DNA of 64,000 nt from Armatimonadetes bacterium CG06_land_8_20_14_3_00_66_21 (lineage in GTDB: Bacteria > Armatimonadota > Abditibacteriia > CG2-30-66-41), in the NCBI GenBank assembly GCA_002779825.1, contig PEVN01000512.1, positions 1 through 64,000 of the forward strand. The letters run 5' to 3'. Shown here one piece after another: positions 1,066 through 53,761 of this stretch. A model generated the notes under the pieces. The model was not told the origin of the DNA and searched no databases. It saw only the letters and a program-made list of their open reading frames with translations. The position numbers were made by a program, and so were the translations under genes. Numbering within the stretch: the stretch's first letter is position 1; each line of letters opens with the position of its first letter.

Positions 1066-1479
1066 GTGGCAGCAGACGACATCACCATCCAGGACATTCA
1101 GGACTTGCGGCCGGCGTGCTATGGGTGCACCAGCACGAACACGCGGATGATCCACCCAAGCGCCGGCTTCAACGATTCGGGCAAGTTCATCATTCAATGC
1201 GGGCAGTGTGGCAGAGTGCGGACCGTCCGGGACGAGCACGTGCGCGAGATGCTGTCCGCAGCCTCGGGACACGCAGCCGCCGGGGAGGACGTCACCGTCT
1301 ACTACCAGGTGGCGATCTATTACCGCAGCGACGACTACCAGGGCGCGGTGCACTCGACGTACGTATTCACCGACCGCCACCGGGCGCAGCAGGAAGCCGA
1401 CACGTTGGTGGAGCGCTACGAGAAGCAATTCGGCTGGGCGACCGCCCATGTCATCCCCGTTCGGGTCGCGGAAAGCTGA
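1066..1479 (+). CDS. Small hypothetical protein with CxxC...CxxC zinc-ribbon-like N-terminus
   Basis: GTG start preceded by aaggaggg; CYGC...CGQC cysteine pairs. Confidence 0.6.
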   Translation: MAADDITIQDIQDLRPACYGCTSTNTRMIHPSAGFNDSGKFIIQCGQCGRVRTVRDEHVREMLSAASGHAAAGEDVTVYYQVAIYYRSDDYQGAVHSTYVFTDRHRAQQEADTLVERYEKQFGWATAHVIPVRVAES

Positions 1480-1605
1480 TTCGCGCAAGGCGTGCTCGCC
1501 CTTCCGCTGGACAGATAGTTGCATGTCTCCCCTCTTGGAAGTGGAGTCTCGGCCCGCCTGCTGACGGTCCGGGGAGCGTGAATCTGTCCGGATCCTGGCG
1601 AGCCG

Positions 1606-2337
1606 ATGAAGCTGTCTCTCTTTGTCCCCTGTTACGTCGATCACTGCTTTCCCAAAGCCGCCATCGCCACGCTGCGCGTCTTGGAGCATCTGGGTCACAC
1701 GGTTGAGTACCCCGAAGGGCAGACCTGCTGTGGGCAGCCTGCCTTCAACAGCGGCTACTGGGACGAGGCACGCGCCGTCGCCCGCACCTTCCTGCGCGCC
1801 TTCCGCGACTGCGAGACCATTGTCGCTCCCTCTGCAAGCTGCGCGGTCATGGTGAAGGTGTTCTACAAGGACCTGTTCCGGGGCGACAAGGACGAAGCCG
1901 AAGCCTGCGCACTCGGCGACCGCGTCTTCGAGTTCAGCCAACTGCTCGTCAACCAACTGGGCGTCACCGACGTGGGCGCGACGTTCCCCGGCAAGGTCAG
2001 CATCCACGACTCCTGCCATGGGCTGCGGGAGCTGGGGATCAAGCAAGAACTTCGCACGCTGCTGCGGTCCGTCCGCGAGCTGGAATTGGTGGAACTCGAC
2101 TACTCCGAAGTGTGCTGCGGCTTCGGTGGCACCTTCAGCGTGAAGTTCCCCGAAGTCTCCACCTCCATGGCCGATGACAAGATCGCGGACCTTCAGCAGA
2201 CCGGCGCGCGATATGTCGTCTCGGCCGACACGAGCTGCCTCATGCACCTGCAAGGCCGGATGCAGAAGCGCGGTCTCGAAATCCAGACGCTGCACATCGC
2301 CGAACTGCTGCACCAAGGGCTCCCTGCGGCGAACTGA
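1606..2337 (+). CDS. lutA: (Fe-S)-binding protein, LutA/YkgE-like (two CCG domains)
   Basis: CYVDHCFP, TCCGQPAFNSGY, HDSCHGLRELG, CCGFGGTFSVKFPEVS. Confidence 0.85.
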   Translation: MKLSLFVPCYVDHCFPKAAIATLRVLEHLGHTVEYPEGQTCCGQPAFNSGYWDEARAVARTFLRAFRDCETIVAPSASCAVMVKVFYKDLFRGDKDEAEACALGDRVFEFSQLLVNQLGVTDVGATFPGKVSIHDSCHGLRELGIKQELRTLLRSVRELELVELDYSEVCCGFGGTFSVKFPEVSTSMADDKIADLQQTGARYVVSADTSCLMHLQGRMQKRGLEIQTLHIAELLHQGLPAAN

Positions 2338-2365
2338 CGGGCACGTGGCCCCAAGGAGAACGGAA

Positions 2366-3793
2366 TTGCCGGACTACGACATCGGCAAGCTTGCACAGAG
2401 TCTCAGGGCAATCTGCGGCCCCGCGGGCGTTATCGCCGACCCAACCGACCTGCTGACGTACGAGTGCGATGCCTACATCGTCGAACGGGTCACCCCCGAC
2501 TTGGTGGTGATGCCGGCGACGACCGACGAAGCGGCACAGGTCATGGCGCTGCTGCATCGCGAGGGAGTGCCAGTGACGCCGCGTGGCACAGGCACCAGCT
2601 TGGCCGGCGGTTGCCTGGCCGCCAGCGGCGGCGTGGTGGTAACGACCACTCGCCTGAAGCGCATTCGGGAGATCGACCTCCGCAACCGCTACGCCGTGCT
2701 CGACGCGGGCGTCATCAACGCCGATCTGCACCGCGCTGTCAACCCGCACGGCTACCACTATGCGCCCGACCCGTCGAGCGAGCAGTCCTGCACAATCGGC
2801 GGCACGGTGGCGACCAACGCCGGCGGCCCCCATACGCTCAAGTGGGGGGTTACGACCAACCACGTACTCGGTCTGGAGGTCGTTCTGCCCGAGGGTACTG
2901 TCCTCAACGTGGGCGGTCCCACCCCGAACCTGTCCGGCTATGACCTGACGGGTGTGCTCGTCGGCTCCGAGGGCACGTTGGGGTTGGTAACCGGCGTCAC
3001 GGTTCGCCTGGTCCGGCTGGCAGACGCCGTCCGAACGATGCTGGCGATCTTCGACCGGCTGGAGGACGCAACGGACACGGTCACCGACATCATCGGCACC
3101 GGCATCGTGCCGGCGGCCCTGGAATTGATGGACCAGACGATGTTGGGCGCGGTCGAGTCCGGTCTGAAGGTCGGCTTCCCGACCGATGCCGAGGCGGTTC
3201 TCATTATCGAGTTGGACGGGCTGGAGCCGGGGCTCGACGAAGAGCTGGAGGCGGTCACCGGAGTCTGCGAGCGCCACGGCGTCCGCGAGGTCCAGCGCGC
3301 AAACACCGAGGCAGAGCGCGCCGCGCTGTGGAAGGGACGCAAGCGCAGCTTCGGCTGCATCGGCAAGCTCAGTCGGTCATTCGTGTGCGAGGACGGCGTT
3401 GTCCCGCGACCGAAGCTGTCTCAGGCGATCCGGGAGATCGGCAAGCTCGCGTCGCAGCACAAGATGCGGGTCGCCATCATCTCGCACGCTGGCGATGGCA
3501 GCCTGCATCCCATCCTCCTCTACGACGAGCGCGACCGAGCACAGGTCGAGACCATGAAGTGCTGCAGCGAGGCGATCATGCGGAAGTGCCTCGAGCTTGG
3601 CGGCACCTCTTCGGGTGAGCACGGCATCGGCTGGGAGAAGGCCAAGTACCTGCCGGTGCAGTACAGCGTTGACGACCTCGACTCGATGCGGCAGATCCGG
3701 GGCGTGTTCAACCCAACCGGCCGGTGTAACCCGCACAAGATCCTGGGCTCAGACGTGCCGTTGGTGGAATCGCTGAGGGGTGAGGCAGCATGA
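2366..3793 (+). CDS. glcD: FAD-linked oxidase, glycolate oxidase subunit GlcD-like / D-lactate dehydrogenase
   Basis: PRGTGTSLAGGC, GGTVATNAGGPHTLKWG, VGSEGTLG, HAGDGSLHP, GTSSGEHGIG; TTG start with aaggag upstream, in frame with track ORF 2174..3793. Confidence 0.87.
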   Translation: MPDYDIGKLAQSLRAICGPAGVIADPTDLLTYECDAYIVERVTPDLVVMPATTDEAAQVMALLHREGVPVTPRGTGTSLAGGCLAASGGVVVTTTRLKRIREIDLRNRYAVLDAGVINADLHRAVNPHGYHYAPDPSSEQSCTIGGTVATNAGGPHTLKWGVTTNHVLGLEVVLPEGTVLNVGGPTPNLSGYDLTGVLVGSEGTLGLVTGVTVRLVRLADAVRTMLAIFDRLEDATDTVTDIIGTGIVPAALELMDQTMLGAVESGLKVGFPTDAEAVLIIELDGLEPGLDEELEAVTGVCERHGVREVQRANTEAERAALWKGRKRSFGCIGKLSRSFVCEDGVVPRPKLSQAIREIGKLASQHKMRVAIISHAGDGSLHPILLYDERDRAQVETMKCCSEAIMRKCLELGGTSSGEHGIGWEKAKYLPVQYSVDDLDSMRQIRGVFNPTGRCNPHKILGSDVPLVESLRGEAA

Positions 3794-5115
3794 TGAGGGA
3801 ACTGGAAGCGCAACTTGCCGGGATCGTCGGCGAAGGTGGATTGCAGCAGGGAGGCGGCTCCGAGTATAGCGTCGACGGTGTCGTGCCAGGCTTGGTCGCC
3901 TTCCCTGAATCAGCCGCCCAAGTCGCGGAACTGGTGAAGGTGGCCAACGCCAACGGACTGAAGGTAGTGCCCTATGGCGGCGGCACCGCCATGGGCCTGG
4001 GCATGACGCCGGAGCGCGTTGACCTGGTCCTCAGCACCAAGCGGCTGACCGACACTCCCCACGACGACCGGCGCGACATGACCCTCAGCGTCGGCGCCGG
4101 CATGACGCTGTCTGCACTGAACGCCCGGCTCGCGGAGGACAACCTCTGGCTGCCGCTCGACCCGCCGGACCCAGAGCGCGCAACTATTGGCGGTCTCGTC
4201 GCGGCCGACCAGTCGGGTCCTCTTCGGCACGGCTTGGGGACCCTGCGCGACCACGTCATCGGCATGAAGGTCATCTCCGCCGAAGGCAAGCTCGTCGCCG
4301 CTGGCGGCCGGGTCGTGCGCAACGTCGCCGGCTACGACATGTGCAAGCTGCACATTGGCGCCCTGGGGACGCTGGGCCTCCTCGTGGAGGTCTCACTCAA
4401 GCTGGCGGCGCGCCCGCAGGCGAACGCGATCGTCCTGGCGAAACTCAGCAGCGTGGCCGACGCGGAGCCCTTGATCGCCGCAGTCCTGGACAGCTCCCTC
4501 GAGCCGGTGCTCCTCGAACTGGTCTCCGGAACAGCCTGCGGCGCCGCAACCGCCGGGCTGCTTCCCGATGGCGCTGTGGTTGCGGCGGGCTTCGCCGGAA
4601 ACGGGCAGCGGGTTGCGTGGCAGGCGGAGGCATTCGCAGCACTCGTCGCCAGCCAGAGCTTGCAGCTCCTCGCTTCCCGCTCTGGCAACGAAGCACAAAC
4701 TGCGCGTGAGGCGCTTGCCGAGGTTCACGGCGGCGACAGTGCTGACGTGGTGCTCGTCGCCTCAGTTCTCAGCAGTCAGGTGGCGGAACTCCTCACCCGC
4801 GCCGCAGCCCTGAGCGAGCCGCGCGGTGTCGCGATGGGCGCCGCCAGCCACGCGGGCAAAGGACTTGCGCGGCTGTTTCTTCGCGGCGAGGAGCAAGCGC
4901 TCACCGAAGTCACCCACGCCGCCCGCGAGGTGGTCGTCGAGCGGGGCGGCAGCCTCATCGTCGCGAAGGCCCCGCCAAAGCTCAAACCCCTGCTGAACGT
5001 CTGGGGCGCGCCGGCCGGGGACCTGGCTGTCCTGCAAGCTGTCCGGCGGACGTACGACCCCAACGAGACGCTGAATGCGTACCGACACGCAACTGCTGTT
5101 CGCGGTGCCGCGTGA
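3790..5115 (+). CDS. glcE: FAD-binding oxidoreductase, GlcE-like
   Basis: VPYGGGTAMGLG, PPDPERATIGGLVAADQSGP, RNVAGYDMCKLHIGALGTLG; overlaps the preceding stop by 4 nt (ATGA). Confidence 0.83.
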   Translation: MMRELEAQLAGIVGEGGLQQGGGSEYSVDGVVPGLVAFPESAAQVAELVKVANANGLKVVPYGGGTAMGLGMTPERVDLVLSTKRLTDTPHDDRRDMTLSVGAGMTLSALNARLAEDNLWLPLDPPDPERATIGGLVAADQSGPLRHGLGTLRDHVIGMKVISAEGKLVAAGGRVVRNVAGYDMCKLHIGALGTLGLLVEVSLKLAARPQANAIVLAKLSSVADAEPLIAAVLDSSLEPVLLELVSGTACGAATAGLLPDGAVVAAGFAGNGQRVAWQAEAFAALVASQSLQLLASRSGNEAQTAREALAEVHGGDSADVVLVASVLSSQVAELLTRAAALSEPRGVAMGAASHAGKGLARLFLRGEEQALTEVTHAAREVVVERGGSLIVAKAPPKLKPLLNVWGAPAGDLAVLQAVRRTYDPNETLNAYRHATAVRGAA

Positions 5116-5239: not shown

Positions 5240-6472
5240 ATGCCCGTGCAGACGTGCCTGGAATCAGAACAGAAGCAGCTCTTTGAGGAAATTGAGGAAG
5301 ACGTACTGGGCTGCATTCACTGCGGCCTGTGCCAGGCGTTCTGCCAGTCGTTTCGGGCACTTGGGTCGGAAGCCTCCAGCCCACGAGGCCGCGTGCATCT
5401 CATTCGCGCCGCCAGCGAAGGCCGCGTCGACCTCGGCAACCAAGGGTTCGAGCATTTCTGGCTGTGCACTCTGTGCAACCGGTGTGAGTTGGCTTGTCCC
5501 ATCGGTCTCAAGATGGCCGACTTGGTCCGCAAGGTGCGGAACATCTATGGCGATCGACTTCCCGAGGGACTCCGCGCCACGGTGGCCGCCCATCTGGACA
5601 CCGGGAATAACATGTCGGTCACCAAAGAAGACTACCTGGACACGCTTGAGTGGATGGAGGAAGAACTCCAGGCAGAGCTGGACGACCCCACCTTCCGCAT
5701 CCCCCTCGACGTCAAAGGCGCGCGCTACCTGCACACGTTCAACCCCAAGGAACCCCGGTTCTACCCCCTGCTCATCCAGTATGCGGCCAACATCTACCGC
5801 GCCGCCGGCGAAAGCTGGACGGTCAGCAGCGAAGCCTGGGACGTCACCAACTACGCGCTCTATGATGGCAACGACGAACGCGCCACCGAGATTGCGCGAC
5901 GCCTCTTCGATCGCGCGCGAGAGTTGGGCGTCGAGGCGGTGGTTGCGTCCGAATGCGGGCATGGCTACTACGCCATGCGGTGGGGCGCCGAGAAGTGGCT
6001 AGGCAAGGAAAACGTCCTCCCGGTTCGGAGCGTGGTTGAGGTGATGGCCGACTACATCACGTCGGGCCGGATTCAGGTGGACCCTTCCGTCCACGCTGGT
6101 GCGCTCCACACGTACCATGACCCGTGCCATCTCGGCAGAAAGGGCGGCATCTTCGACGAGCCGCGGCAGATCATCCAAGCCTGCGTCCCCAACTTCGTCG
6201 AGCTGGCCGACAACCGAGAGAGTAGTTGGTGCTGCGGCGGCGGCGGTGGTGCCCTGGCGATGACCGAGTTGACGCCAAAGCGACGCCTGACGGCGGAGAT
6301 GAAAGCCGAGCAGATTCGCCAGTCGGGGGCGGAGATTGTGATCACCGCCTGCCACAACTGCCACGACCAGCTCGAAGACATCAAGAAGGTCTACGGGTTG
6401 ACCTACAAACTGAAGAACCTCAGCGAAATCGTGTCCAAGGCGTTGGTCCAACCGAGTGCGGAAACGGCGTAG
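5240..6472 (+). CDS. glcF: (Fe-S)-binding protein, glycolate oxidase iron-sulfur subunit GlcF-like
   Basis: CIHCGLCQAFC, CTLCNRCELACP, YHDPCHLGRKGG, CCGGGGGALAMTE, CHNCHDQLEDI. Confidence 0.8.
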   Translation: MPVQTCLESEQKQLFEEIEEDVLGCIHCGLCQAFCQSFRALGSEASSPRGRVHLIRAASEGRVDLGNQGFEHFWLCTLCNRCELACPIGLKMADLVRKVRNIYGDRLPEGLRATVAAHLDTGNNMSVTKEDYLDTLEWMEEELQAELDDPTFRIPLDVKGARYLHTFNPKEPRFYPLLIQYAANIYRAAGESWTVSSEAWDVTNYALYDGNDERATEIARRLFDRARELGVEAVVASECGHGYYAMRWGAEKWLGKENVLPVRSVVEVMADYITSGRIQVDPSVHAGALHTYHDPCHLGRKGGIFDEPRQIIQACVPNFVELADNRESSWCCGGGGGALAMTELTPKRRLTAEMKAEQIRQSGAEIVITACHNCHDQLEDIKKVYGLTYKLKNLSEIVSKALVQPSAETA

Positions 6473-50915: not shown

Positions 50916-53483
50916 CTACAACGCACAGCGGAACCCGACCGGGCCGAGCTCGAACAGCGGGTTGTCCTCCACCCGAGAGGTGCACCGCCCAAACCGACAG
51001 TCTTCAGCGAACGACCCGCCGCGAATCACCCGCCGCTGGTAGGCTCCGCGCGGCCGAATCTCGCCGCTTGCCTCCTCAGCCACAAACGGGCTTGCAGTGT
51101 ATTCCCAGACGTTGCCAACCATGTCGAGGCACCCAAAAGGGCTGGCGCCCTCGGGGTAGCGCGTGACCGGCGTTGTGGCACCCAGTCCACTCTCCGCTGT
51201 GTTGCATCGCTCTGGAGCGAACTGGCTCCCCCACGGGTACGCCCTGCCGTCCACGCCCCGGGCGGCTTTCTCCCACTCCTCTTCAGTGGGCAAGCGATGG
51301 CCGAGCCACCTGCAGTAGGCCTCGGCGTCGTACCATGACACCCCGTGAGCCGGGTGGTCCGCCAGAACCTCGTCGTAGTCGCCCCCGGCCCAATGCGCGG
51401 GAGCGCCTCGGCCCGTGGCGGCGACGAAGCGCGCATACGCTTCGTTGGTGACCGGATACCGAGCGAGGTAAAACCCCTCCGTCCGGCGCCGCCTCTGCTC
51501 GGGTTCCAAGGAGTTCTCGCCGAAGAGAAACTCGCCCGCCGGCACCCATAGGTAGCCGTGGGCGGCCAGCAGTTCGCGGTGGCTATCCTTGCTGAGACGG
51601 CCCAGAGCACCGATGGTCCACGCGACCCCGAAGTCGTCGTCTTCCAGCTCTTTCAAGAGGCTTAGGAGCGCGTCCACCGCGGGTGCGCCCGGGCAGGTCT
51701 CAAACGCCTGCACCGAGGCAACCAGCGACCCGCGGTCCAACTCAGCAGACCGCGCCTGCTCCAGCAGCCGATGGGCGCTAGCCAGCCGGCGGCGCGGCGT
51801 GCACTCACGTAGCCGTTCCAGGGCGGCCTCCCGGATGATCTCGTCTTCACTTCCCAGCGCCTGAACGAGTTCCTCGTCCGCTTCCAGGCTTCGCTGCTCG
51901 CCGCCGAGCAACGAGCTGTCCGTCGTCGAGGACAGATAGCGGTACGGCGCGAGATCGGCCCCGCCGAAGAGCGGCTCAATGGAGAGGAAGTCGAGCAGAT
52001 CGTGCTTGTCCTGGTGCTGCTGAAGCATCGGGGATGACTCGACCAGGGCCTGCCGGTGTGCCCCATCCACCGCCGCGGCGAGTTCTTCCAGCCGCCGCAG
52101 CAAGCCGGGGAAACGCGCCACCTGCGCGAACTCAGCCGGCCAGGCTCGCCCCAGCACAAGCCACTTGGCCAACAGCGCCTCCTCTAGCCCCGGACTGGCT
52201 GGATTGAGCAGTCCGGCTTGGGCCGCGAGGTGCTTCTGAAGACTGAACTCATTCAGGAACTGCTTCACTCGCCGGGGGTTATTGTTCAGACCCTCGGCGA
52301 TGATATCAACAAAGTGCTCCAGACCGGGTTCGCACTCGAGCCCGGTAACCAAGTTGGCGATCTGCACTCGGTTGGCCGTGGGGAGGTTGAACTGAAGCTG
52401 GACGATCTTGTCGAGGTAGTCCTTCTCTGTCCCGACGCTCTCCTGCGACGTCGGGTGCAGCGTCTGATAGACCACCTGGATGCCGCGCTGGATCAGCTCC
52501 CGGTCCGCCCCAATCACGAAAACGCACCGCGGCACGCTAAGCACGAGCTTCAAATCCTCCAGTAGCTCGATCACCCGCTCCGGCAAGCACCGATCCAGAT
52601 CGTCTACAAACACGACCAACCGGCCGGCCGGGCCCACGATCTGCAGCACCAGCTCCTCCAGAACGTCGCGGAATACGTGATAGTCATTGCTTCGAAGCAG
52701 CGCGCGCCCCTGGGAGGGGTCCTGGATGAGCGCCGTCCGCTGGAGATCAGCGCCCATGGACGCCAGGGCCGAAGTCATGGCGTACGGCAGGCCCTTCTGG
52801 GGCTTCTCGTCTCCGCCTTGAATGGCAAGAGTGCGCTCGAATGCCGCGACCAGTGGCGCCGCAATGGAGGCGTCCCGGTAGTGTTCCCATGGGTTGAACC
52901 AGATCGCGCGGAAGTGCTGTTGACGCAGTTCGTACTGGATCAGCCGCATCAGGCTGGTCTTACCGCTTCCCCACGGGCCGTAGATCCCGACGGTCACCGG
53001 CGTATTGGTCTTCGGGTGGGCGATGAACCCGGCGATACTGCCGGCAAACGGTCTGAACCCAAGGAGGTCTTGCTCAGGCTGCCCGATGGGCTCATCCGCC
53101 AGCACTCCTTGCTGGAATGATGCCGCCCCCAAGTGCCCCAGCGCCGCGGGCCCTGCTTCAGAAGGTCGCAGCACGCCGACCGCCTGCTCTGACCCACCAG
53201 GCACCCCGGCGGCGGGCACTTCCGGCGGCGGAGCCACCGCGGGCTCCGGCGCGCGCCCCTCGCCCGCCGACGACTGTGGCGGCGGCGGCTCACCAAGAGC
53301 GCCCGGCGTTCCGTCGGACACTGGCAGCCCTGCCCCGCGAGGTCTCATCGGATCCATTCCCGCGATCCCCCGGGCGCGGCTCAGTGCCGCCAGCAGCGAC
53401 GACGCGTCGGGGCGCAGTGCCCCGGGCGGCGGAACCTCCGGCGAAGCGTTCGAGAGGTCGGTGTTGTCAGCTTCTGGGCTCAC
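50916..53483 (-). CDS. KAP-family P-loop NTPase fused to a helical-repeat region and a C-terminal FGE-sulfatase (C-type-lectin-like) domain
   Basis: Walker A TVGIYGPWGSGKTSLMRLI, FNPWEH, Walker B VVFVDDLDRCLPERVIELLEDLKL, NNNPRRVKQFLNEF; C-terminus WVPAGEFLFGENS...YPVTNEAYARFVAATG...RLPTEEEWEKAARG...VIRGGSF...VGFRCA. GTG start at 53483 chosen; track ORF extends to 53690 through the inverted repeat. Confidence 0.88.
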   Translation of the reverse strand: MSPEADNTDLSNASPEVPPPGALRPDASSLLAALSRARGIAGMDPMRPRGAGLPVSDGTPGALGEPPPPQSSAGEGRAPEPAVAPPPEVPAAGVPGGSEQAVGVLRPSEAGPAALGHLGAASFQQGVLADEPIGQPEQDLLGFRPFAGSIAGFIAHPKTNTPVTVGIYGPWGSGKTSLMRLIQYELRQQHFRAIWFNPWEHYRDASIAAPLVAAFERTLAIQGGDEKPQKGLPYAMTSALASMGADLQRTALIQDPSQGRALLRSNDYHVFRDVLEELVLQIVGPAGRLVVFVDDLDRCLPERVIELLEDLKLVLSVPRCVFVIGADRELIQRGIQVVYQTLHPTSQESVGTEKDYLDKIVQLQFNLPTANRVQIANLVTGLECEPGLEHFVDIIAEGLNNNPRRVKQFLNEFSLQKHLAAQAGLLNPASPGLEEALLAKWLVLGRAWPAEFAQVARFPGLLRRLEELAAAVDGAHRQALVESSPMLQQHQDKHDLLDFLSIEPLFGGADLAPYRYLSSTTDSSLLGGEQRSLEADEELVQALGSEDEIIREAALERLRECTPRRRLASAHRLLEQARSAELDRGSLVASVQAFETCPGAPAVDALLSLLKELEDDDFGVAWTIGALGRLSKDSHRELLAAHGYLWVPAGEFLFGENSLEPEQRRRRTEGFYLARYPVTNEAYARFVAATGRGAPAHWAGGDYDEVLADHPAHGVSWYDAEAYCRWLGHRLPTEEEWEKAARGVDGRAYPWGSQFAPERCNTAESGLGATTPVTRYPEGASPFGCLDMVGNVWEYTASPFVAEEASGEIRPRGAYQRRVIRGGSFAEDCRFGRCTSRVEDNPLFELGPVGFRCAL

Positions 53484-53543
53484 TGTGAGTTGTGGACGGT
53501 CACCGGCCTGCCAGCCGCCGGCTCCGTCCCTTCTCCTTATACT

Positions 53544-53680
53544 CGCGAAGGTTAAGAACACACCGAAGTGGAAGTTCGCGGAACTTCCCCGGCAGGCGTG
53601 CAGCAGACGTAGGACAGAGGGTATTCTCCCAGACGGAGCCGAAGTCGCACCGGGACTTCGGTGTGTTCTTAACCTTCGCG
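53544..53680. repeat. MITE-like element: perfect 26-bp inverted repeats bounding a 137-bp segment
   Basis: Left 53544-53569 cgcgaaggttaagaacacaccgaagt; right 53655-53680 acttcggtgtgttcttaaccttcgcg; internal hairpins ggaagttc-gcg-gaacttcc (53570-53588) and ccgaagtc/gacttcgg (53639-53661). Confidence 0.85.
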
Positions 53681-53761
53681 GATATAGCACGCCCCGAACG
53701 TCTCGGTATGCGCGTCCCTACAAGTGTTGCGCGACGCGGGGCTCTCGTCCGCTGGACCCGG

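Follow-up and report, generated by a model that had tools for sequence, protein, structure and literature searches.

An orphan KAP NTPase-FGE fusion gene in an Armatimonadetes genome, a probable fixed-specificity sensor ATPase with apparently diversified relatives

The stretch analyzed here (the window) comprises 64,000 nucleotides of contig PEVN01000512.1 from Armatimonadetes bacterium CG06_land_8_20_14_3_00_66_21 (GenBank assembly GCA_002779825.1). It contains a minus-strand gene that encodes, in a single uninterrupted frame, a fusion of a KAP NTPase domain with a C-terminal FGE-sulfatase domain of the C-type lectin fold (KAP-FGE; coordinates in Table 1). A preliminary description made from the sequence alone had recognized this architecture and recommended searches with both family profiles, and these bear it out: Pfam KAP_NTPase matches with E = 1.5e-34 (profile positions 1-288 of 293; 120 bits against a cut-off of 20) and Pfam FGE-sulfatase with E = 1.6e-53 (positions 4-254 of 255), which, for one frame, is far beyond chance. 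The Walker A motif, the DDLDRC Walker B motif and the NNNPRRVKQFLN motif were all found where that description had placed them, and the terminal motif that it quoted is exact. The protein thus has the above-cut-off profile score, the Walker A and the DDxDR Walker B by which KAP family members are recognized. A search of the PDB with the sequence of the KAP part yielded no solved relative.

The GTG assumed as start codon is plausible, whereas a longer open reading frame (ORF) start at 53690, beyond an upstream transposable element, is probably spurious. Judging by composition, the N-terminal region of about 130 aa is probably disordered; no effector or effector-associated domain (EAD) was recognized in it with Pfam and PADLOC, libraries that may lack some EADs. 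No 19-residue stretch reaches the hydrophobicity of a clear membrane helix, so the protein is probably cytosolic. The region between the NTPase and FGE domains had been described as repeat-like helices. It is helical in a very low-confidence model, and its repeat nature is unproven, with no match to a Pfam repeat family.

The FGE domain has its best PDB matches in ToxD, with its FGE-like domain, and in the paralogue SUMF2, and it belongs to the same fold family as SUMF1 and SUMF2. SUMF1 has two catalytic cysteines, one of which is aligned in the window protein: relative to human FGE, a three-residue deletion takes out the first, whereas the second aligns, in agreement with the earlier remark that the cysteines are offset from the catalytic pattern. 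The FGE copper site is a bis-thiolate that requires two cysteines (PMC12123546), so it cannot form here as in FGE. With the catalytic pair lost, the domain is probably a binding module rather than an oxidase.

A KAP ATPase may take the place of the STAND NTPase in NTPase-FGS systems (PMC8195603, 2021); these systems, explicitly including KAP, have been placed among predicted conflict systems (PMC8195603; PMC10907252), and targets of clade 5D diversity-generating retroelements (DGRs) sometimes use KAP NTPases (PMC10907252, 2024). The KAP-FGE architecture is therefore already known. The window protein resembles the NTPase-FGS conflict proteins (PMC8195603) in combining a KAP NTPase and an FGE/FGS domain in one chain. 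It differs in having no recognized N-terminal EAD or effector, and no EAD-effector partners among the neighboring genes tested, features that are frequent, though not universal, in that class; no DGR was found near it either. Compared with the relatives aligned to it, its Pro/Ala-rich N-terminus is long and its FGE domain is preceded by a longer middle region. The association with phage exclusion and immunity that had been drawn through PifA does not extend beyond the NTPase domain: PADLOC gave matches to QatA (2.4e-40), PifA (4.8e-32) and PDC-S20, all within the shared KAP region. The QatA and PifA matches are partial over the profile, with none in the FGE domain. Membership in the Qat anti-phage system was rejected, given a QatA NCBIfam score of 175 bits against a cut-off of 600 and no QatB, QatC or QatD among the tested neighbors.

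A scan of a genome collection with the KAP-and-middle part as query returned two loci, L051 and L052, both encoding KAP-FGE proteins. Two more, G347 and G502, came from 395 searched genomes of the L051 phylum, and one more, G440, from a search at class level. With G347/G440 and L051/L052 each forming a close pair, the five relatives amount to about three lineages. In G347, G502 and G440, a NACHT-FGE gene adjoins the KAP-FGE gene. The G347 locus, in the order HD-CE/NACHT-FGE, bAvd, reverse transcriptase (RT), template repeat and KAP-FGE, is a complete DGR and fits the layout of clade 5D DGR targets, which include KAP NTPase-CLec proteins (PMC10907252), with two targets. In the NACHT-FGE segment, all differences from the template over the first ~70 bases fall at template adenines, whereas the KAP-FGE variable region has 24 A-site and 12 other mismatches; unlike the NACHT-FGE, this KAP-FGE may be a past or weak DGR target. 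The G347 NACHT-FGE variable region also shows an apparent one-base deletion relative to the template, with a frameshifted C-terminus. The stretches read from G502 and G440 showed no RT, and the KAP-FGE frame of G440 is broken by an inserted segment.

Between G347 and G440, the variable segment is 68% identical at the nucleotide level versus 91% over the remainder of the final 960 bases (Fisher p = 5e-8), and between L051 and L052 it is 71% versus 89% for the rest (Fisher p = 2e-5). From this divergence in two pairs, the KAP-FGE receptors of the relatives appear to be diversified now or to have been so recently. The RTs of the L051 and L052 genomes were considered as DGR enzymes and rejected, since by reading they resemble a group II intron RT and a CRISPR-adjacent RT; the surroundings of the RT loci fetched from these genomes yielded no template repeat. 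Both KAP-FGE genes are directly followed, on the 3' side, by an IS200-like Y1 transposase gene. Scans of viral contigs yielded no KAP-FGE, and the FGE query gave two viral FGE genes; on one IMG/VR contig, a vWA-like gene precedes an FGE-domain gene. Plasmid searches returned no full KAP-FGE, with partial KAP or FGE matches alone.

On balance, we favor the interpretation that the window protein is a soluble sensor-switch of the NTPase-FGS class whose ligand face is fixed and which probably acts in conflict or stress. The C-terminal domain would bind a ligand, either an invader protein or glycan or a stress-related cell component, and the middle region would transmit this binding to the KAP ATPase. 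The latter would change state or oligomerize with ATP and thereby expose or recruit an effector, possibly contacted through the disordered N-terminus. In the relatives, the ligand face appears to be, or to have been, rewritten by a DGR, and the protein is paired with NACHT-FGE in three of them; the window copy is an orphan in its own genome. We infer the conflict role, including a possible function in phage defense. The preliminary description had likewise proposed a candidate conflict or signaling protein; for the conflict role speak the occurrence of the architecture in predicted conflict systems, the NACHT-FGE genes beside the relatives and the single DGR locus.

Several observations weigh against this interpretation. 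The neighboring genes are metabolic (DHDPS-like, pyridoxal phosphate enzyme, ferredoxin, NAD-synthase-like and GH123-like). No effector, adaptor, partner NTPase or RT was found near the gene, and no defense model matched the tested neighbors or larger ORFs at E <= 0.001, so that the neighborhood analysis suggested at the outset turned up no defense gene. The block had been called accessory-looking, which the metabolic flanks contradict and the absence of KAP-FGE from the same-class and same-phylum genomes searched favors. The 291 genomes of the phylum yielded no KAP-FGE (some fetched loci were short, and a few downstream domains may be cut off), so the lineage offers no other copy with which to compare gene context. 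Structure prediction was uninformative: with thin alignments of 3 and 5 sequences, AlphaFold models had mean pLDDT values of 37 and 43. We found no experimental data on any KAP-FGE protein. The KAP domain is present in a single copy in this genome (8.3 Mb, 93% complete). In favor of the interpretation, a NACHT/AAA-FGE fusion protein of ~1350 aa is encoded on another contig of this genome, which makes cooperation in trans with the window protein possible.

The metabolic neighborhood would suit a regulatory or signaling KAP-FGE protein without a conflict role, for example one sensing envelope or nutrient state, an alternative that we consider unlikely but credible. This alternative is also in line with the many FGE proteins of the genome, including kinase-FGE and NPCBM-FGE fusions, and with the lack of diversification in the window copy. 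However, NACHT-FGE genes and, in one case, a DGR accompany relatives that share the architecture, and the hypervariable ligand faces of the relatives suit the sensing of invaders better.

DGRs are present elsewhere in the genome of the window gene. Among five RT matches, two loci (contigs C192 and C319) qualify as DGRs, since their mismatches between variable region (VR) and template repeat (TR) lie at template adenines only, 11 of them in a 70-base span of C192, and both carry RT and Avd-like frames (Avd judged by reading). A locus on contig C299 is, from its gene content, a probable third. The C192 and C319 templates each have one target, in cis. None of the three templates fits the window gene, to which the C192 and C319 templates have many non-adenine mismatches, and a search of the assembly for a template (A allowed everywhere, 3 mismatches) returned the gene itself as the sole match. 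The window gene thus has no variable region that matches a template of the 93% complete assembly with mismatches at template adenines and, in contrast to clade 5D DGR targets (PMC10907252), no linked RT, Avd or matching template. The earlier statement that the window holds no RT or template repeat agrees with our reading, and the link to DGRs that had been raised for FGE-fold domains does not extend to this gene. With lower confidence than for the regulatory alternative, we suggest that the gene could encode a former part of a DGR-driven adaptive system, a KAP-FGE receptor that left that system and turned into a fixed innate one while other DGRs stayed active in the genome, with its unusual disordered N-terminus recruiting an effector.

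It is very improbable that a template missing from the incomplete assembly acts on the gene in trans and makes it an active DGR target. Some room for this is left by the diversified relatives, by the 93% completeness and by the presence in the genome of at least two DGRs whose VR/TR mismatches are adenine-only, but the template search and the strictly cis matches of both known templates argue against it, as do the non-adenine mismatches and the codons at variable positions (GAA, CGG, GTG and CCG), which do not fit AAY-derived codons. No more credible is a catalytic enzyme, either a sulfatase-maturing FGE or an EgtB/PvdO-like oxidase joined to an ATPase: the FGE family score is strong, weak EgtB, SenA and PvdO matches were obtained and a CX4C pair lies near the terminal motif, but the EgtB/PvdO matches are far under their cut-offs and the deleted first catalytic cysteine precludes a copper site as in FGE.

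The MITE-like (miniature inverted-repeat transposable element) sequence reported just upstream is real and ends 55 bp before the assumed start codon. Roughly a hundred copies occur genome-wide, with ~95-99% identity among the 20 fetched, and TATA on both sides suggests insertion at TA sites. The element could affect expression of the KAP-FGE gene; its membership in the gene is unsupported. The orphan state of the gene, without partners and with this element close to its start, might indicate a gene that has been decaying since its partner system was lost, but the full-length open frame, intact Walker motifs and essentially complete FGE profile match make this the least probable explanation.

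Table 1. Features of the KAP-FGE gene, its surroundings and the other loci discussed
Feature	Location	Coordinates	Strand	Remarks
KAP-FGE fusion protein	window	50919..53483	-	855 aa; GTG start 53483, start uncertain, ATG at ~aa 43 also possible
N-terminal ~130 aa	window	53094..53483	-	58% Pro/Gly/Ala/Ser (composition); no Pfam match
KAP_NTPase domain	window	52239..53057	-	Pfam
Walker A, GPWGSGKTS	window	52953..52979	-
Walker B, VVFVDDLDRC	window	52587..52616	-
NNNPRRVKQFLN motif	window	52251..52286	-
Region between NTPase and FGE	window	51564..52238	-	aa ~416-640; helices in very low-confidence model only
FGE-sulfatase / C-type-lectin-fold domain	window	50919..51560	-	Pfam and alignment to human FGE
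C-terminal RGGSF...GFRC segment	window	50928..51023	-	counterpart of DGR variable region in related FGE domains
RGGSF	window	51000..51023	-
GFRCAL	window	50919..50936	-
MITE-like element	window	53538..53686		149 bp with flanks; ~30 bp terminal inverted repeats between TATA flanks
DGR	L059, contig C192	VR ~5285-5388, TR 4635-4738		FGE target starting with signal-peptide-like segment
DGR	L060, contig C319	VR 475-584, TR 1417-1526		FGE target cut by contig end; mismatches at template adenines only
Probable DGR	L061, contig C299			RT, asparagine-rich template-like repeat, caspase-FGE-like ORF cut by contig end; by reading
NACHT/AAA-FGE	L066, contig C555	1797-5858
DGR locus of G347	L101	2861-9423
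Y1 transposase gene	L051	8316-9023		IS200-like
Y1 transposase gene	L052	2319-2825		IS200-like
vWA-like gene, then FGE-domain gene	L114 (IMG/VR)	2174-3714

The window gene is an orphan member of an already described architecture and most likely encodes a fixed-specificity sensor ATPase; the most substantial new findings concern its relatives. Surveys mention KAP-FGE proteins by name, and we found none that had been experimentally examined. The G347 locus and the two hypervariable pairs make diversified bacterial antigen sensors directly testable, and the window copy offers a natural non-diversified comparison.
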